64,000 nt of DNA from an uncultured Owenweeksia sp. (GCA_937146805.1 CAKZRR010000028.1:62001-126000); one strand, 5' to 3'; positions 56,769 through 64,000 are shown, counted from the first letter of the stretch. Translations and numbers: made by a program. The notes: generated from the letters alone by a model not told the origin.

Positions 56769-57092
56769 TTAATCCACAAAAGTTTCCCTTATAATATCTT
56801 TACATTTCTGTATTTCAGATCTCGTCAATTTGTCAAACGTTTTTAATATTCGAGATTTGTCAATTGTCCGAATTTGGTCGATTGCAATCATTCCTTTTTT
56901 TTGGAGATACTTTACTTTAATTCTGGTAGGATAACCTTTTAAGTTTGTTGTCATTGGAGCAACTACAATGGTTCTTAAAAACTTATTAATTTCGTTTGGC
57001 GAAACAATTACGCAAGGTCTTGTTTTTTTAATTTCACTACCAATAGTTGGGTCAAGATTTACAAGTACGATTGAATATTGTTCTAATTCCAT
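56769..57092 (-). CDS. MazF/PemK family endoribonuclease toxin
   Basis: 107 residues. MazF fold markers: YSIVLVNLDPTIGSEIKKTRPCVIVSPNEINKF (the EIxxxRPxxVxS motif), TIVVAPMTTNLKGYPTRIKV and GMIAIDQIRTIDKSRI with the conserved D-Q-xR-TxD. It should cleave mRNA when freed from its antitoxin. It overlaps the antitoxin gene by 10 bp and depends on its promoter. Position at the distal edge of the cassette array and an own promoter are typical of integron toxin-antitoxin cassettes, but I could not find a clear recombination site around it. Confidence 0.9.
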   Translation of the reverse strand: MELEQYSIVLVNLDPTIGSEIKKTRPCVIVSPNEINKFLRTIVVAPMTTNLKGYPTRIKVKYLQKKGMIAIDQIRTIDKSRILKTFDKLTRSEIQKCKDIIRETFVD

Positions 57093-57328
57093 TCCTCAAA
57101 ATTTTCGTCCTCGAAAACATCATTGAATAATAATCGATCATCGTTATTATCATGCATTTTTTCAAAAGCTTTTTCCCAGTTTTTTCTCGGGGTACTAATT
57201 GGTTTAATGATTATTTGACCTTTCTCCAAAATCATTTCGACCTTGTCCTTTATATTATATTTTTCTAAAATAGTCTTACTTAAACGTAGTCCTTTAGAAT
57301 TTCCTATTTTTATAATTGCCGTTTCCAT
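57083..57328 (-). CDS. MazE/AbrB-type antitoxin
   Basis: 81 residues: a swapped-hairpin AbrB/MazE DNA-binding domain at the N-terminus (METAIIKIGNSKGLRLSKTILEKYNIKDKVEMILEKGQIIIKPI), then an acidic C-terminal tail (DNNDDRLLFNDVFEDENFEEW) that would wrap the toxin. Directly upstream of and overlapping the toxin gene. The consensus promoter upstream is the expected autoregulated site. Confidence 0.9.
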   Translation of the reverse strand: METAIIKIGNSKGLRLSKTILEKYNIKDKVEMILEKGQIIIKPISTPRKNWEKAFEKMHDNNDDRLLFNDVFEDENFEEWN

Positions 57329-57347
57329 AATTCAAATTTCGTAATTA

Positions 57348-57378
57348 CAAAGTTATTACAAAATATTTAGCTCACAAA
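57348..57378 (-). promoter_or_regulatory. Promoter of the toxin-antitoxin module
   Basis: On the minus strand TTTG (57375-57378), a 19-bp spacer and TAACTTTG (57348-57355) form one of the best consensus Bacteroidota promoters in the window, 19 bp before the antitoxin ATG. Confidence 0.8.
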
Positions 57379-57454
57379 GTTTTTCCGTATTAATGCAAAC
57401 GATTAAATAAAAACTGGCATAGCTTGGGTTTGTTTGTTATTGGCAACAGTTTTA

Positions 57455-58645
57455 TTAATAAATCTCATTTTTGGAAATGTTCAAATCCGTCAACTTGATT
57501 AGAAGTTTACCGATTTCGGCAAAGGTTGAGTTATTTGGTGTCCATCGGTCAACTATTTGATATTGTCCTTCTTCTATGCCTTCAATAATCCAATTTGAAC
57601 CATCAAAACCAGTATCGCTAGATGTTGTTTCTAGGTTCCAGAAATCCGTATTGTCCAGGCATTGGGTAAATTTCATCCACTCAGATTCCATTAAAATTCT
57701 TTGGTTAAGATTAACAATACGGTTTGAAGAGTTTCCTTCACCTCCTTCAATTATTTTCCAAGTGAGCTCAATTAGAGTCTCATTTTTTCGAATTGATATA
57801 GTAACTGGATTATGGAATGTTCTTAGCCATATAAACCGAATAACAATATCATCATTGTTAGCGCAAAGTTTCTCTTCACCAAACGCAACTAATGCATTTG
57901 AATATGTAGTTAATTTCCTTTCTGTAGCCCGAGCTATCCTTTGTAAGTCATATGTGAAATTTGATTGCCAATTATTCGGGAGGTTGATAAAGTCATCTAA
58001 AGGAAATTCATAGGGATAGTCAATTTGATAACACCAATTTTGATTGTTACTTCTTAAGAATTGTTGATAATAAATACTGTCACCGACAAGAAATGAAATT
58101 TGGTAAATGGGAAGCCTTAAACTATTATAGTAGGTTGAATCATATTTAATGGCGTTAGTCATATTTTCTCTAGCCCTTTTTGCGATTTTAATGCTATAAC
58201 TGATAGAGTCATTTTTATAAAAGCGTTGTGAATGTCTGTAAAGTGTCTTTGCATATAGAAAATAGCCTATGGCATTTGTGGAATCGATAAGAAGAGCATT
58301 ATTTAAATCAGCATAGCTAATTGTGTCTTTTGATGAAAGAGCCCAATGATTAAATTCGGCACTTAACAGCCATGGCTCTGGCTGATTAGGATATTTTTCC
58401 TTAAGTCTTTTAAAGAACCGTTTTTTTCTTTTTAATTGATTATTTTGATCATATGAATCCGATAAGTAAAAACATGCCGAGCTATTAAATGGATCAATTT
58501 TGAATATCTTCTTAGCGAGCTCTTCAGCATTTCGGTAATCTCGGTATTCATATTTCTGAAATTCCTTAATCAGACTGTCTATGCGTTGTGCATTAGTTGA
58601 GTATGAAATGATCAAGAGAGCTATAACAAATATGTATCTATTCAT
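57455..58645 (-). CDS. Cassette gene: secreted hypothetical protein with TPR-like N-terminal half
   Basis: 396 residues. Signal peptide (YIFVIALLIISYSTNAQ), then a helical tetratricopeptide-like half (YRNAEELAKKIFKIDPFNSSACFYLSDSYDQ, QPEPWLLSAEFNHWAL, ALLIDSTNAIGYFLYAKTLYRHS) and a mixed C-terminal half with Trp- and Asp-rich segments. No catalytic family recognised. AT-rich like the rest of the array. Its start lies 6 bp beyond the attC-like hairpin at 58651-58704. The 126 bp between its stop and the antitoxin start hold the TA promoter and a weak A/T hairpin; no clear recombination core is visible there. Confidence 0.75.
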   Translation of the reverse strand: MNRYIFVIALLIISYSTNAQRIDSLIKEFQKYEYRDYRNAEELAKKIFKIDPFNSSACFYLSDSYDQNNQLKRKKRFFKRLKEKYPNQPEPWLLSAEFNHWALSSKDTISYADLNNALLIDSTNAIGYFLYAKTLYRHSQRFYKNDSISYSIKIAKRARENMTNAIKYDSTYYNSLRLPIYQISFLVGDSIYYQQFLRSNNQNWCYQIDYPYEFPLDDFINLPNNWQSNFTYDLQRIARATERKLTTYSNALVAFGEEKLCANNDDIVIRFIWLRTFHNPVTISIRKNETLIELTWKIIEGGEGNSSNRIVNLNQRILMESEWMKFTQCLDNTDFWNLETTSSDTGFDGSNWIIEGIEEGQYQIVDRWTPNNSTFAEIGKLLIKLTDLNISKNEIY

Positions 58646-58650
58646 AATTA

Positions 58651-58704
58651 TTGCGAGCGGTTAGTGTAAAATGCGTTTTAATGCATTTTTACACAGTGTT
58701 GTGT
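58651..58704 (-). repeat. Short attC-like recombination site
   Basis: Read on the minus strand: core ACACAAC (58698-58704), then GTGTAAAAATGC (58683-58694) pairing with GCATTTTACAC (58664-58674), i.e. an 11-bp stem with one unpaired extra A on the first arm. Such a single extrahelical base in an otherwise palindromic arm is a trademark of integron attC sites, where it marks the strand to be recombined. The second core near 58651 is not a recognisable GTTGT and has probably drifted. The stop codon of the upstream gene (58678-58680) lies in the hairpin loop. Confidence 0.6.
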
Positions 58705-59235
58705 ACTGGCCTTTTTCAATTTATACTTTTCTTGCTCCTTTTCAGAGAATAAAATCGTCAAGTGGTCAGCCCAATAACTCAGGGAAGAATCTTCTTTGAT
58801 TTCGAGAGCAGAAACCCAAATATTTTTGTCATTTTCAAATTTCAATTCCCAAGATTGAGGAAGATAATTTGTAGAAGATGATTGGCATTCATCCCAATAA
58901 ACATTTATCTCAACAAGGCTATTGTTAATTAACTCAGTCCAAGATTCGTTTTGCGATACCGCCATCGTTTTTATTCCTTCTCGATAATCTAATTTTTTCA
59001 GTTGTTCGATTCCAATGCCATAACAATAGAACTCATTATCCCATTTAATCTGAATCAACTCCTTATTATCTAATTCCAGTATAACATTCATATCTATCGA
59101 GTGACAGGAATCGGAAACCTTCCAATATTCCTCACCATTTTGATAATCTAATTCTTCATAATACACGTTCTGGATTTTTCGTCCAACAAGTGCTCTTTGA
59201 ATTAAATTGTAATATGCCTGTTCTTTTTTAGTCAT
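58678..59235 (-). CDS. Cassette gene: hypothetical soluble protein
   Basis: 185 residues, acidic, no signal or membrane segment. Predicted alpha at the N-terminus (KKEQAYYNLIQRALVGRKI), then mostly beta strands with many aromatics (NVYYEELDYQNGEEYWKV, IQIKWDNEFYCYGIGI, SWELKFENDKNIWVSALEI). Resembles the general style of immunity/SMI1-like or DUF cassette proteins but I cannot assign a family. Its 3' end reads into the attC-like hairpin so the last residues (STQHCVKMH) come from the site. It starts 12 bp from the core of the long repeat R1. Confidence 0.7.
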   Translation of the reverse strand: MTKKEQAYYNLIQRALVGRKIQNVYYEELDYQNGEEYWKVSDSCHSIDMNVILELDNKELIQIKWDNEFYCYGIGIEQLKKLDYREGIKTMAVSQNESWTELINNSLVEINVYWDECQSSSTNYLPQSWELKFENDKNIWVSALEIKEDSSLSYWADHLTILFSEKEQEKYKLKKASTQHCVKMH

Positions 59236-59246
59236 TTCTTGCTTGT

Positions 59247-59606
59247 AGACAACAAGTTAGTAAACGTAACTGAGTTGCGTTTATGTTTCCTTTATCCAGC
59301 TCCCAATATAGCACATGTGCATAATGTATTACATGGATAAAAGGAGGTTTTTAGTGTACGTAGTTTCTAAGTAAACAGCTTTCGCTTTTCATGCCAATTG
59401 ATGGGGTTTAGCAAAATGTATGAAAGCGGGAAAATCACATGGCTTAATACCACCCGTCTTTCATTGGCTCTTTGTAGGCCTATTTACCTCACCTAATTTT
59501 TGCTAGAAAAACTACTGACCCAAAAAACAAAAAGCCCGCTAAGGGCTTTTACTAAATCAGTTATTTTGAGTTGGGAGGGGTTGTGCAACAGCTACTTTTG
59601 TTGTGG
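59247..59606 (-). repeat. Long cassette-junction repeat R1 (~360 bp, attC-like cores)
   Basis: First of four copies. Outer cores on the plus strand are GACAAC(AAG) at 59247 and (TTTT)GTTGTGG at 59600-59606, like the short sites. Inside, in plus-strand order: a near-palindrome TAAACGTAACT-G-AGTTGCGTTTA, a stem CCTTTATCC / GGATAAAAGG, a GAAAGCGGG / CCCGTCTTTC hairpin, an intrinsic terminator, and TTGGGAGGGGTTGTGCAACAGC. Copies R1-R3 align end to end with scattered substitutions. The gap between the flanking genes holds nothing else. Confidence 0.85.
59522..59550 (-). terminator. Terminator inside long repeat R1
   Basis: On the minus strand AAAAGCCC-TTAGC-GGGCTTTT followed by TGTTTTTTG, 11 bp after the stop codon of the J-domain-like gene, whose last codons lie in the repeat. 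Confidence 0.8.
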
Positions 59607-60151
59607 GCAGTGATTTTTTCTATTTTGTCTTTCTTGAATTTTGTGATTCCGTGGTTATGCATGAGTATTCCAATTGTCATGACTGGAAGAGATATCAAAA
59701 GAACTTTCCAGTCGCCATTGCTCAAATAGTATCCTATTGTCACTATTCCGGCCAATATCAAAAAGATGCCAGTCGCTACCCATCCATAATTTACTTCCAT
59801 TAAGAGTCCCAAAAATTCAAGTCCAGCATCGTCCATTGGATATTTTTTCAATGGCCTGGTTATCATTTCAGGTTTGTTCTTTTGTTGCTCTAACAGTTTT
59901 TGGGCTTTCTTTTCTTTTCTCTCGACAACTGCCAAGTACTTTGGATTTATTGTCTTGTTACTCTTTTGCTGTTTGAAAGCAAGGTCATAAAATTTTCTGC
60001 TGGAGTCCTGAAGGACGAGATAGGATGTTAGAACTTGTTCTCGCGTTGGTCGGTCTAAATCTGTTTGTAAATATCTCTTTCTAAATTCTTTGAATATCTT
60101 GAGAGAACTCGCGTCTGTCGGTACTTTTAATATGTCGTAGTAGTCGTTCAT
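59561..60151 (-). CDS. Cassette gene: J-domain-like protein lacking HPD, with C-terminal membrane hairpin
   Basis: 196 residues from the ATG at 60151 (a TTG start at 60169 inside the repeat core would add six residues). Residues 1-60 look like a J domain: DYYDILKVPTDASSLKIFKEFRKRYL ... TREQVLTSYLVLQDSSRKFYDLAF, but the HPD motif needed to stimulate Hsp70 is missing (YLQTDLDRPT at that place). A charged coiled segment follows, then two hydrophobic helices (WVATGIFLILAGIVTIGYYL and VLLISLPVMTIGILM). The last 11 residues (SCCTTPPNSK and the residue before) and stop come from the long repeat. Function unknown; co-chaperone activity is unlikely. Confidence 0.72.
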   Translation of the reverse strand: MNDYYDILKVPTDASSLKIFKEFRKRYLQTDLDRPTREQVLTSYLVLQDSSRKFYDLAFKQQKSNKTINPKYLAVVERKEKKAQKLLEQQKNKPEMITRPLKKYPMDDAGLEFLGLLMEVNYGWVATGIFLILAGIVTIGYYLSNGDWKVLLISLPVMTIGILMHNHGITKFKKDKIEKITAHNKSSCCTTPPNSK

Positions 60152-60160
60152 TTTTATTGC

Positions 60161-60521
60161 CCACAACAAGTTAGTAAACCTAACTCAGTTACGTTTATAT
60201 ATCCTTTATCCTGCCTCCAATATAGCACATGTATATAATGTATTACATAGATAAAAGGATGGTTTTTAATGTACGCAGTTTCTAAGTAAACAGCTTGGTC
60301 TTTTCATACCAATTGATGGGGTTTAGCCAAATGTATGAAAGCGGGAAAGCCACATGGCTTAATACCATCCGTCTTTCATCGGCTCTTTGTAGGCCTATTT
60401 GCCACACCTAATTTTTGCTAGAAAAACTACTAACCCAAAAAACAAAAAGCCCGCTAAGGGCTTTTATTAAATCAATTATTTTGAGTGGGGAGGGGTTGTG
60501 CAACAGCTACTATTGTTGTAG
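60161..60521 (-). repeat. Long cassette-junction repeat R2 (~361 bp)
   Basis: Second copy. Plus-strand outer cores CCACAAC at 60161-60167 and GTTGTAG at 60515-60521. Contains the same ordered elements as R1; the palindrome is TAAACCTAACT-C-AGTTACGTTTA (one mismatch) and a minus-strand TACATTTG occurs at ~60331. It separates the J-like gene from the next cassette gene. No open reading frame with evidence of selection is found in it. Confidence 0.85.
60437..60465 (-). terminator. Terminator inside long repeat R2
   Basis: Minus strand AAAAGCCC-TTAGC-GGGCTTTT plus T-rich tail; about 70 bp after the stop of the 60533-61201 gene. Confidence 0.8.
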
Positions 60522-60532
60522 CCATGTGCTTT

Positions 60533-61201
60533 TTATTCTTTTATCCATTTGACTGTTGCAACAGCATCTTTCCATTGTTCTGCTATTGCTCCGTCAGTCT
60601 GATAGTTGAAATAGTTTTCAAAGTCATATAAAATGTCAACTACATCCTTGAAGTCATTCAATGCGAGAATTTCAAGTCTGCCCAAAATTTCTTCGGGATT
60701 GTCAAGGTTTCTCGTTCCTTTCAAGTTCCTTAATTCAATTAAGAAACTGTCTGCTTTTGATTCATCTATGTCCACCTGTTCAAATGCAGGTTTTTGCTCT
60801 AACACAACAAGTTCGTTTTCTTTGACAAAAATCTGTTGAAGTCCAATTTCAACTTGTTCCCATTTCCAATTTTCTCCAGCGGGCAGATATTTTAATTCCG
60901 TGATTGTAAGTTCAAGTTCGTCTTTCTTTACAATGCAGTTTTGAACGGCTCCATATTCTACAAGTTGTTCACCTGTTTTGCAATTGAATACGTTAAACTC
61001 TGAAATCAAAACTTCGTTTTCGCTTAATCTTTCCTGTTCGTATCCGCAAACAGAAAGGGTCGTTCCGTTACTAAATTTTATTGTCAAGCTCGGTTTGTCA
61101 GATTCTGAAGAGCCTATTCCGTTAAAACATCCACAGTCGGTCGATTGGGCAGTAACAGTAATTGAAATTATCGTCAATATGATTGTTAGCAGTTTCGTCA
61201 T
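60533..61201 (-). CDS. Cassette gene: secreted hypothetical protein
   Basis: 222 residues from the ATG at 61201. Signal peptide LLTIILTIISITVTAQ, then a cysteine pair STDCGCFNG, beta-rich residues 30-130 (SLTIKFSNGTTLSVCGYEQ, VLISEFNVFNCKTGEQLVEYG) and a helical C-terminal half. Periplasmic or exported. No family recognised. A longer frame to 61273 would translate the attC-like site and is rejected. The gene ends 12 bp before the outer core of R2. Confidence 0.72.
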   Translation of the reverse strand: MTKLLTIILTIISITVTAQSTDCGCFNGIGSSESDKPSLTIKFSNGTTLSVCGYEQERLSENEVLISEFNVFNCKTGEQLVEYGAVQNCIVKKDELELTITELKYLPAGENWKWEQVEIGLQQIFVKENELVVLEQKPAFEQVDIDESKADSFLIELRNLKGTRNLDNPEEILGRLEILALNDFKDVVDILYDFENYFNYQTDGAIAEQWKDAVATVKWIKE

Positions 61202-61212
61202 TTTTGCATTGG

Positions 61213-61281
61213 TTACAACGGTTCGGCTATGGTGTCGTTGGCGGCCCAAAGGGCGACAATGCACTATAGCCATTGTTGTGC
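61213..61281 (-). repeat. Short attC-like site (69 bp)
   Basis: The clearest site. Minus strand: GCACAAC (61275-61281, immediately after the TAA of the upstream gene), then GGCTATAGTG ... CACCATAGCC as complementary arms (one mismatch), an inner TGTCG/CGACA pair, a GCCC-TTT-GGGC tip, and finally GTTGTAA (61213-61219). Two inverted core sites around imperfect arms, ~70 bp long and directly after a stop codon, is the attC architecture of integron cassettes. Confidence 0.75.
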
Positions 61282-61758
61282 TTAGTTGTTTTGTTTTATC
61301 AGAAGTCCAAGACAGATAAATGGGACAATATGAAAAATTGCTGTCACGTATATCATTGATTTTGGAATTTGCTGTTTGTTGAATTTTTTAAAGTGTGTTT
61401 TATATTTATCCTTTCTCCATAGTATAGTCTCGTTAAAGATTATTGAGGTAAGACAAGCCACAACAAGAATAGCAATTAAGTTTAGTTCAAAATTTATTCT
61501 AAGAGGCGTCAACAATAGTATTATAGCCCAAGTTAAACTCCATAACATCCATCTATATGCCCAACGTGAATCTCCATTTTTATCTGGATTATTTCGTGGG
61601 ATTAAATGCCATTTTTCAACAAGCTTAACTCTTTTTTCAGGAATCGGTAAAAGTCTCATTAGCCATAGTAGAGGTTTGATTATAATATTGTTGGACAACC
61701 AGTTCATACCTCTTAGAGTGATATAGAATATATAGTTATAAAACAGTGAAATGGTCAT
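61282..61758 (-). CDS. Cassette gene: hypothetical membrane protein
   Basis: 158 residues, three or four hydrophobic segments: one near residues 1-38, AYRWMLWSLTWAIILLLTP near 66-84, LIAILVVACLTSIIF near 92-107 and SMIYVTAIFHIVPFICLGLLI at the end. A basic stretch (ILWRKDKYKTHFKKFNKQQ) should face the cytoplasm. No family recognised. The ATG at 61758 is 15 bp from the core of long repeat R3; the stop codon abuts the short attC-like site. Confidence 0.68.
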   Translation of the reverse strand: MTISLFYNYIFYITLRGMNWLSNNIIIKPLLWLMRLLPIPEKRVKLVEKWHLIPRNNPDKNGDSRWAYRWMLWSLTWAIILLLTPLRINFELNLIAILVVACLTSIIFNETILWRKDKYKTHFKKFNKQQIPKSMIYVTAIFHIVPFICLGLLIKQNN

Positions 61759-61772
61759 TTTTCATTTATTAA

Positions 61773-62132
61773 GCACAACAAGTTAGTAAACTTAACTGAG
61801 TTGCGTTTATGTTTCCTTTATACTGCCTCCAATATAGTACATGTGCATAATGTATTACATAAATAAAAGGAGGTTTTTAATGTATGTGGTTTTTAAGTAA
61901 ACAGCTTAGGCTTTTTCAAGCCGATTGATGGGGTTTAATCAAATGTACGAAAGCGGGAAAGCCGCTTGGCTCAATACAAAGGGCCTTACATTGGCTCCTT
62001 GTAAGCCTATTTGCCTTGCCTATTTTTTGCTAGAAAAACTACTGACCCAAAAAACAAAAAGCCCGTTACGGGCTTTTATTAAATCAATTATTTTGAGTTG
62101 GGAGGGGTTGTGCAACAGCTACCATTGTTACC
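61773..62132 (-). repeat. Long cassette-junction repeat R3 (~360 bp)
   Basis: Third copy. Plus-strand outer cores GCACAAC at 61773-61779 and GTTACC at 62127-62132 (second core diverged). Same internal order as R1/R2; terminator tip altered to GTTAC, showing compensating change (GCCCG/CGGGC). The left palindrome is less perfect. The C-terminal 14 codons of the upstream gene lie inside it. Confidence 0.85.
62048..62077 (-). terminator. Terminator inside long repeat R3
   Basis: Minus strand AAAAGCCCG-TAA-CGGGCTTTT then TGTTTTTTG; 11 bp after the stop codon at 62088. Confidence 0.8.
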
Positions 62133-63179
62133 AGCAGTATTTATTTTTCCTTCTAAAAAGTCATTTTCAACCGCCCATTTGTGCAACTTATCATATCTTA
62201 TTTTTACAGAAGCAGGGAGCTGATCAATTGATTCAGCCTGATACATTGTTAGTTGATTTTTCTCGTAACTTTTCATTCCTTGCCTTTCAATTTCCCTTTT
62301 ATCCATATCAACAATCTGATTCTCTACATCATTTTCCGTCATTTCAGGTAAGCTCTCTATCCATTCCATGAAATTAATTGTCTCTGGGTCTTCGGATGAA
62401 ATAGTAGAAAGAATTTTAAAGTCATTATTTTTCAAATACTTTTTTAGCTTCTGAATCTGAAACCCTTGTAAATGGCTGAAAGAGGGAATATCTATGCCAA
62501 ATTTTCTACTATAATCATAACTAATCATTCCGTTTGGGAATTTTAATAAATGAAGTGTCATTACAATTGTAACAATTTCCTCAAATGTCTCTACCCATTT
62601 TAAGACATAATCTTGCTCAAAAGTTTGACAATTAGATTTTAGTCTGCCTAATCTGTTTGAATATAATTGACCTTTTGTGTGAACGTAGTTATGTAAATAA
62701 TTAAGATTAAGTAAGCGCTGTTTTAAATCACTATTTTTTTGAAATTTTTGTATGTTTTCATTCTTAATAAGAATTTTCCATATGTCAGTTATTCTTGGAG
62801 TATTTGCTTCCTTACTATCTTCAGAGTTAAGCCATTTTTGTACAGCGTTGTGACCATCATCATTGATATTGTAATACACAGATAAAAGCCCAAGTTCAAG
62901 TACACTACGTAGGGATGACATTGATTGCTTGTAAAGTCCAAAGCACATTTGACTAAATGAAATTTGTGATTCTTCCCAAGACTCTACATAAGGAAAGTTG
63001 TGACCAGACCAGAAACTATCAATAGTTGTAGGTATGATATCTAAAGCAGAATGATACAACCAAGACAGTTCACTTATTTTATCACTAATTTCCTTATTGG
63101 ATTCCAAGTATTCATTAGTTTTTTCATAAACGTTAATACTTGTGTCAGGGTCATATGTAAATGGAAGAAACTTCTTCAA
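62088..63179 (-). CDS. Cassette gene: hypothetical alpha-helical protein
   Basis: 363 residues with a TTG start at 63179 (an in-frame TAA lies just upstream and no early ATG exists). Soluble, helical; segments such as SELSWLYHSALDIIPTTID, MCFGLYKQSMSSLRSVLELGLLSVYY and LLNLNYLHNYVHTKGQLYSNRLG (H-N-Y-x-H in a helix) recall DUF5677/abortive-infection-like helical bundles, but I cannot assign it. The terminal residues GSCCTTPPNSK are encoded by repeat R3 and are shared with the J-like cassette protein. Cassette ends GCTACCAGC and GCTGGTAAC are complementary. Confidence 0.7.
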   Translation of the reverse strand: MKKFLPFTYDPDTSINVYEKTNEYLESNKEISDKISELSWLYHSALDIIPTTIDSFWSGHNFPYVESWEESQISFSQMCFGLYKQSMSSLRSVLELGLLSVYYNINDDGHNAVQKWLNSEDSKEANTPRITDIWKILIKNENIQKFQKNSDLKQRLLNLNYLHNYVHTKGQLYSNRLGRLKSNCQTFEQDYVLKWVETFEEIVTIVMTLHLLKFPNGMISYDYSRKFGIDIPSFSHLQGFQIQKLKKYLKNNDFKILSTISSEDPETINFMEWIESLPEMTENDVENQIVDMDKREIERQGMKSYEKNQLTMYQAESIDQLPASVKIRYDKLHKWAVENDFLEGKINTAGNNGSCCTTPPNSK

Positions 63180-63203
63180 TATGTTTTATTGCTGGTAGCG
63201 CCA

Positions 63204-63383
63204 AGCTATGCGTAGTACGGATTTACGAAGCCGAAACTCCCAACCTTGCACTTAGCCGAGGCTTTACATTTTGTATTTATTTTCTCTGTCAAAATACCAA
63301 ATTAAAGTCTTGGCGGACTTCATTGAGTGAACGGATTTTCATTTGTGACGGAAACCCGCATTACGCATCAGCTATTGTTGTGC
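63204..63383 (-). repeat. Medium-length attC-like site (~180 bp)
   Basis: Minus strand: core GCACAAC (63377-63383), arm AGCTGATGCGTAATGCGG (63356-63373) complementary to CCGTACTACGCATAGCT (63204-63220) with one extra G on the first arm, enclosing a ~135-nt variable part. The second core is degenerate. It fills the 209-bp gap between two cassette genes; I see no gene in it. Confidence 0.6.
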
Positions 63384-63388
63384 TGCGT

Positions 63389-63784
63389 TTATTTATGTTT
63401 TACGGGTTCGGTATATACTTTTATGTTTTTCAATTTTTCCCAAGTAATTGAATCTATTCCTTTTGCTTCGTCAATTACCTTTTCAATCATATCATCTGAC
63501 ATTTTGGTTTCTAATTCATCATACAAGTCAATAAAACTCGGAAGTAAATCAAAATCTTCCTCTCTACTACACCGTATACCTATTGCGGGATAAGCCGAGC
63601 CAAACGGATTTTCAAAAGAAATCAAATCGAATTCAGTCGATGTAGGAAAATATTTGAACCAAATTGGGAGTTTTGTTCGGAATACGTCCAAGCAAGAAAT
63701 TATTAAATTCATGTCCCAATTTAACTTCTCATAAAACGGAAGCTCTACAGGTAAATATCCTCTCTTATTAATCGTCCTCTTCAT
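63389..63784 (-). CDS. Cassette gene: hypothetical protein
   Basis: 131 residues from the ATG at 63784; a GTG at 63799 would start inside the core of repeat R4 and is rejected. Soluble, acidic: LPFYEKLNWDMNLIISCLDVF, WFKYFPTSTEFDLISFENPF, then PAIGIRCSREEDFDLLPSFIDLYDELETKMSDDMIEKVIDEAKG. Overall look of a small immunity- or SMI1-like fold but no family can be named. It ends 6 bp before the core of the medium attC-like site and begins 12 bp from R4. Confidence 0.68.
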   Translation of the reverse strand: MKRTINKRGYLPVELPFYEKLNWDMNLIISCLDVFRTKLPIWFKYFPTSTEFDLISFENPFGSAYPAIGIRCSREEDFDLLPSFIDLYDELETKMSDDMIEKVIDEAKGIDSITWEKLKNIKVYTEPVKHK

Positions 63785-63795
63785 TTTTTGATGCC

Positions 63796-64000
63796 GCACA
63801 ACAAGTTAGTAAACGTAACTCAGTTACGTTTATATTTCCTTTATCCTGCCTCCAATATAGCACATGTACATAATAATTACATAAATAAAAGGAGGTTTTT
63901 AATGTACGTAGTTTCTAAGTAAACACCTTAGGCTTTTATGTCTTTATAAAACCTATAGTCTCACAACCTCGGGTACAAAAGGCCTGTAATCTCCTTTATG
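63796..64000 (-). repeat. Long cassette-junction repeat R4, partial
   Basis: Fourth copy, with core GCACAAC at 63796-63802. Alignment to R1-R3 holds to about 63937, then the sequence is unrelated, or continues beyond the window in a diverged form. Its inner palindrome at 63810-63832 is perfect: 11-bp arms TAAACGTAACT around a single C. The rest of the window to 64000 contains no gene I can support. Confidence 0.75.

Follow-up and report, generated by a model that had tools for sequence, protein, structure and literature searches.

A gene-cassette array without a recombinase in an uncultured Owenweeksia sp., very probably an outpost of an integron-like system of Bacteroidota

Integron integrases are defined by the IntI additional domain, which is held essential for recombination of attC sites. 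IntegronFinder requires a match to the IntI-specific profile before it accepts an integrase (PMC9668308), and surveys of Bacteroidota report almost no integrons, at first only In0 elements and then one complete integron in Salinibacter (PMC9024848). Among the simple tyrosine recombinases, Smyshlyaev et al. (2021, PMC8138268) distinguish an integron-like subgroup and note that its insertion is not fully conserved; neither there nor in the NCBIfam entry NF040815 do attI, attC or a cassette array appear to be ascribed to the insert-less members. The DNA analysed here, referred to as the window, is a stretch of 64,000 nucleotides (nt) from an uncultured Owenweeksia sp. (GCA_937146805.1 CAKZRR010000028.1:62001-126000, here G000:C28:62001-126000), whose genome comprises 3.16 Mb in 58 contigs and is 98.9% complete. 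The gene-cassette array in the last 6.6 kb of the window is very probably an integrase-less outpost of an integron-like system of Bacteroidota, which in its complete form in relatives consists of a non-IntI recombinase of about 380 amino acids (aa), a predicted promoter, an attI site and cassettes. It is also probable, though with less confidence, that Bacteroidota have their own integron-like capture system, whose recombinase lineage lacks the IntI domain, is carried by about half of the sampled Bacteroidia species and has escaped notice as finders require that domain, and that at least one genome has made the system distributed, with about 20 promoter-attI platforms. No earlier description of this system was found in the literature searched, preprints and most subscription journals lying outside it.

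Like chromosomal integrons (IntI/attI/attC, e.g. the Vibrio superintegron), the system has a tyrosine recombinase with a SAM-like N domain (PF13495) and PF00589, an attI crossover at G|TT, attC sites with RYYYAAC and GTTRRRY boxes, hairpin arms and unpaired spacers, many of them 121-129 nt long, and a predicted promoter ahead of mostly unknown, co-oriented genes. Unlike in chromosomal integrons, the recombinase lacks the IntI additional domain, has about 90 extra N-terminal residues, forms a separate clade and is co-oriented with the cassettes. The reverse integrons of Treponema denticola (PMC4909258) share the integrase gene co-directional with the cassettes and the GTT at the attI-attC junction, but they are described with intI, whereas here a non-IntI recombinase, a Bacteroidota host and platforms dispersed in one genome are found. 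The array itself resembles the clusters of attC sites lacking integron-integrases (CALIN; PMC9024848), in which two or more attC sites and cassettes have no integrase near them, as it has four attC-like sites and no recombinase in the array or in the 12.5 kb to the contig end. It differs from CALIN in that each sub-array keeps an attI-like promoter platform and that the recombinase lineage of its sites would fail the IntI-domain profile of IntegronFinder (PMC9668308), by which this lineage would consequently be passed over. By its components the system would work as an integron does, and it is the lack of the IntI domain, a defining feature, that keeps it out of the canonical family.

The original prediction, made from the window alone, was an integron-type cassette array of consecutive leftward, mostly unrecognisable genes separated by inverted repeats with GCACAAC/GTTGT cores. 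Seven consecutive minus-strand open reading frames (ORFs) were indeed found at 57,398-63,802; none of the seven reached the Pfam gathering or NCBIfam cut-offs, with sub-threshold matches for only two (TPR and DnaJ), and the core boxes are present where predicted. A gathering-level Rfam scan of the window gave no matches. The spacers are of two sorts, and the prediction had captured the short attC-like hairpin sites but overlooked the second, a long repeat of about 350 bp which is full in three places (repeats B, C and D below) and represented by its right half only at platform A. Read in the direction of the genes, the first half of the long repeat opens at RYYYAAC and bears an intrinsic terminator, and the second half, the leader, ends in ...ATAAACGTAACTGAGTTACGTTTACTAACTTG|TT and abuts the next gene. 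The array is listed below in gene direction, the long repeats having been delimited by repeat search and BLAST.

63,800-63,937, minus strand: platform A, promoter and attI-like leader at the array start beside coaD; predicted crossover GTT 63,802-63,800
63,389-63,784, minus strand: cassette 1 ORF, 131 aa, no family; R' GTTGTGCGGCA against R'' CGCAGCACAAC, 9/11
63,197-63,379, minus strand: attC-like site 1, 183 nt; arm score 14 against a cross-pair mean of 6.5, fold z -3.4
62,088-63,179, minus strand: cassette 2 ORF, 363 aa, listed with a TTG start; R' GCTACCAGC, directly after attC-like site 1, with GTT mutated to GCT; R'' GCTGGTAAC; final codons inside the repeat
61,777-62,129, minus strand: long repeat B, R''-proximal half with terminator (62,057-62,077) and promoter/attI-like half (GTT 61,779-61,777)
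61,282-61,758, minus strand: cassette 3 ORF, 158 aa, no family; R' GTTGTGCTTAA against R'' CTAAGCACAAC, 10/11
61,217-61,277, minus strand: attC-like site 2, 61 nt, ACAAC-AAT-GGCTAT...ATAGCC-GAACC-GTT; arm score 11 against 5.0, fold z -4.1
60,533-61,201, minus strand: cassette 4 ORF, 222 aa; R' GTTGTAACCAA against R'' ATGGCTACAAC, 9/11
60,165-60,520, minus strand: long repeat C, terminator half (60,445-60,465) and promoter/attI-like half (GTT 60,167-60,165)
59,561-60,151, minus strand: cassette 5 ORF, 196 aa, sub-threshold DnaJ-like match; R' GTTGTGGGCAA, R'' TGCCCACAAC
59,251-59,604, minus strand: long repeat D, terminator half (59,530-59,550) and promoter/attI-like half (GTT 59,253-59,251)
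58,678-59,235, minus strand: cassette 6 ORF, 185 aa, no family; R' GTTGTCTACAA against R'' CAGTACACAAC, 8/11
58,656-58,700, minus strand: attC-like site 3, 45 nt, the following R' reading GCT (GTT mutated); arm score 10 against 5.1, fold z -3.6
57,455-58,645, minus strand: cassette 7 ORF, 396 aa, sub-threshold TPR match; own R' and R'' mismatched
57,398-57,438, minus strand: attC-like site 4, weak; fold z +0.6, about 90% identity over about 49 nt to a site in another genome (G020)

In cassettes 1-6 the start box (R', GTTRRRY-like) is reverse-complementary to the end box (R'', RYYYAAC-like) of the same cassette at 8-10 of 9-11 positions. When R' and R'' of 24 cassettes of the source genome, whose ends were not picked by eye, were permuted, the score of the own pairs was 194 against 170.3 +/- 3.9 for shuffled partners (maximum 185 in 20,000; z = 6.1). 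Three of the four short sites in the window fold better than dinucleotide shuffles, and the mean fold z over 25 attC-like sites from the source genome and relatives was -2.9. The prediction is upheld in so far as it placed an integron-type array, with R''/R' sites, on a chromosome of Bacteroidota. A common form of the sites is RYYYAAC-N1-3-stem...stem-AAAC(C)-GTTRRRY, with loops of about 10 to about 120 nt. As a separate observation, AAATAAAC/GTTTATT-like attC arms turn up repeatedly, in different genomes and beside different cassettes (L012:18329-18450, L225:1501-1542 and 57,398-57,438 in the window), which hints at a possible family of related attC sites.

The complete system was found in relatives. 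A recombinase profile built from 15 proteins, with matches counted at E <= 1e-80 for Bacteroidia, matched in 194/395 Bacteroidia genomes and in 89/296 genomes of a sample of the phylum. In complete loci the recombinase gene has downstream of it, on its own strand, a predicted promoter, attI, with its GTT about 100 nt past the stop codon, and the cassettes; the relatives thus have an attI with a G|TT crossover beside a recombinase co-directional with the cassettes, and the platform in the window has no recombinase. Among 46 loci that had not been selected for the motif, the attI motif TA[TA]A[AG]N1-3AGTT was present past the stop in 31, mostly at +89 to +111, against 3.6% of control windows. 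The Bacteroidota-type promoter box TAnnTTTG was present at +7 to +15 from the stop in 21/47 loci, against 3.2%. A Chryseobacterium plasmid (L310, NZ_CP041688.1) carries a recombinase of the family that is followed by an attI motif (..ATATAAACAAGTT) and co-oriented genes, and the system can therefore be mobile. Recombinases on Acinetobacter plasmids (H2, H3 and H5) share 47-53% identity with the Bacteroidota family across 185-235 aa, which makes transfer across phyla possible.

The recombinases lie outside IntI. The distance from KDR to HxLRH was 58-59 residues in 30/30 readable members and 100 in a Vibrio integron integrase, and around its additional domain VchIntIA (2A3V) has 58 residues, against 15 at that position in the linked recombinases; the IntI-specific domain is absent from them. 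In a phylogenetic tree the 36 members included formed a single clade (100/99), separate from both IntI and Xer; the long branches are a caveat. The NCBIfam model NF040815, 'tyrosine recombinase/integron integrase', gave them 215-224 bits (cut-off 220). An AlphaFold model of one member (L077, pLDDT 72) showed an Xer/IntI-like core with Z scores of 22.6 to XerA, 22.2 to archaeal Xer and 21.4 to VchIntIA; its N-terminal ~95 residues are of low confidence and unplaced, and the model is uninformative on their fold. A HARP-like N-terminal domain was considered as binder of attC hairpins and rejected, as it was matched by only 1/15 members, and a paper on Bacteroidetes LexA held no link to this recombinase. 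A complete homologue of about 380 aa is present in a congener (G003). In the source genome the best TIGR02249 match, C1:245-1054, was rejected as the integrase since the next gene looks, by eye, like an IS91-type transposase.

Exchange of cassettes at attI, with breakpoints at AGTT|, was observed by comparison among relatives, not in the window. Two loci from different genera (L196 and L197) are 100% identical over 1,414 nt up to ...GGGTATAAACAAGTT and have different cassettes beyond, and L347 and L349, at 84% identity, diverge at ...CTATATACTAGTT. Divergence no more than a few bases from that point was seen for L348/L353, L211/L336, L211/L345, L347/L350, L203/L208 and L331/L332, the last pair being weak because L331 is a contig end. 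Three dissimilar platforms, in three species, have as their first cassette a gene for a full-length Lnu(H)-like lincosamide nucleotidyltransferase (452 bits, cut-off 540; L219:2845-3615, with homologous cassettes in L342 and L344); R' is the same in two of the three, R'' reads CTACCGC[TC]AAC in all three, and the attC tails differ. Contig ends less than 5 kb from the recombinase were found downstream in 55/85 cases and upstream in 5/65 (P = 2e-13). Twelve of the downstream ends lie 61-180 nt past the stop, which is the position of attI, and four contigs end at AGTT(A) itself. This bias fits population variation at the crossover.

In the source genome, leader copies were found in 22 places, 19 of them with a complete 3' end, and every complete leader directly precedes a different gene. 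Platform A shares 91-93% identity over about 135 nt with other platforms of the genome. Conservation halts exactly after GTT, and the following bases vary (GGGC, GTAG, AACC, GGCG, GTGC...), as expected if TTRRRY comes from the cassette. At the 5' end the copies are ragged; about 98-115 nt form a core common to them, and some longer versions reach about 460 nt. At one locus (L035:16428-16596) a decayed recombinase tail ends about 91 nt before the crossover of a dispersed leader (L035:16,535-16,596). Complete systems have this same geometry, and the best reading of the leader is therefore a promoter-attI segment that belongs to the system and has been copied to other places in the genome. The source genome has three more C-terminal remnants of the recombinase; behind each lie an attI-like site and a cassette, the R'/R'' agreement being 11/11, 10/11 and 7/11. 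A complete genome (G131) searched for copies of its attI had a single one, and the dispersal of platforms appears, as far as tested, peculiar to the Owenweeksia genome.

The array lies between a Nudix gene and coaD, which are convergent neighbours in relatives, with a gap of 23 bp in an Owenweeksia metagenome-assembled genome (L063) and at most 43 bp in eight others. The gap is 16-43 bp in the closely spaced relatives and hundreds of bases to kilobases in further genomes. As the two conserved genes are adjacent in relatives, the window holds a block of 7.3 kb between them, which by this comparison appears to have been inserted and begins at the leader at 63,800. The array consists of four tandem platform units placed between Nudix and coaD, and close relatives match its cassette DNA only in terminator-half and attC pieces. 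The original prediction had taken the array for a distal end, with the integrase and attI to its right. Instead the array starts at the attI-like platform 63,800-63,937, and when the contig was read to its end at 138,526 (12.5 kb), coaD and other ordinary genes were found but no recombinase, IntI tyrosine recombinases included.

The mechanism proposed builds on features observed directly, namely site anatomy, fixed geometry, boxes, hairpins, recombinase linkage, exact breakpoints and cassette sharing. The recombinase would most likely join attI to a folded attC at G|TT, the attC presumably being used as a folded single strand. Each cassette begins with TTRRRY and ends with RYYYAAC and a hairpin (attC), and insertion and excision at G|TT would leave the cassettes in a single orientation behind the promoter, whose predicted box would drive their transcription. 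In the source genome the recombinase machine seems to have been lost or left unassembled and the landing sites to have multiplied. About 20 copied promoter-attI segments may each serve one or a few cassettes with their own promoter and often a terminator; these platforms, ragged at the leader 5' ends, would have spread through the genome.

The R''/R' boxes, folded sites, common orientation and G|TT junction all agree with a canonical chromosomal integron whose IntI is encoded in another place or has disappeared, leaving an ordinary CALIN, and clusters without intI are frequent (PMC9024848). However, neither the source genome nor any of 148 relatives has an IntI above the curated cut-off, the recombinase beside such sites has no IntI insert and a clade of its own, and the source genome holds an attI with a tail remnant of the non-IntI clade, so that a canonical integron is unlikely. 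The long repeats could alternatively be a family like miniature inverted-repeat transposable elements or repetitive extragenic palindromes that brings promoters and terminators, the cassette appearance being incidental; the copies, about 20 in number, are dispersed and ragged at their 5' ends, the longer versions share up to about 460 nt, and TAAACGTAACTGAGTTACGTTTA is a near-perfect palindrome. Such a family would not account for complete leaders that each directly precede a different gene, conservation that stops exactly at GTT, complementary R'/R'' within own pairs and a recombinase remnant at the canonical distance, and is very improbable. Movement of the cassettes by the housekeeping XerC/XerD via dif-like sites, rather than by the tail-only recombinase, has hardly any probability: the genome does encode two Xer-type recombinases (C18, C13), and a platform with the terminal half forms an Xer-site-like inverted-repeat core, but in relatives a dedicated recombinase lies at a set distance from the cassettes and the sites are long hairpins, not 28-bp dif-like sequences.

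Several points weigh against an outpost of the integron-like system. The source genome has no complete recombinase, so present activity there is only a possibility, and a congener with a complete genome carries a decayed copy. Leader DNA occurs in the source genome only (0/148 other genomes searched). Platform promoter boxes in the source genome read TATATTTG or TATATTGG, and those in the window are TATATTGG, not TATATTTG. Two R' boxes in the window have GCT, not GTT, cassette 7 has no matching R'', and the site at 57,398-57,438 fails to fold. For the 25 attC-like sites, many of them 121-129 nt, the arm score of own pairs was 310 against 151.6 +/- 9.8 when permuted, with a z of 16.2 that is inflated because the 3' ends of the sites were picked by eye; the R'/R'' and attI-position tests are free of this. 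If the integron-like system is as proposed, an insert-less lineage beside attI, a promoter and exchangeable attC cassettes would represent another route to attC recognition, and integron-type gene capture would extend to much of Bacteroidota. At least one cassette resembles a lincosamide resistance gene, which would bear on the circulation of resistance genes in environmental and host-associated Bacteroidota.

Between the array and Nudix, at 56,769-57,328 on the minus strand, a PemK/MazF-type toxin (56,769-57,092; PF02452, 5e-27) and a weak MazE-like antitoxin (57,083-57,328; PF04014, 0.0016, below cut-off) make up the toxin-antitoxin pair that had been predicted for the far, left end; no intact R'' of its own was seen for the pair. 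Homologues of the cassette 4 protein are sparse and weak, occurring in 7/395 Bacteroidia genomes with the source genome counted. Two unrelated cassette ORFs run into the long repeat (window 59,561-59,600 and 62,088-62,130) and share the tail SCCTTPPNSK, their last codons thus being supplied by the repeat. Two mini-recombinase ORFs of 86 and 71 aa in the source genome (G000:C1:4392-4652 and C1:37607-37822; L011 and L012) have a common junction, at which an MPNQ.VIQ start is fused to the catalytic tail, and the same promoter. This suggests a single deletion followed by duplication, and the small proteins have possibly been kept.

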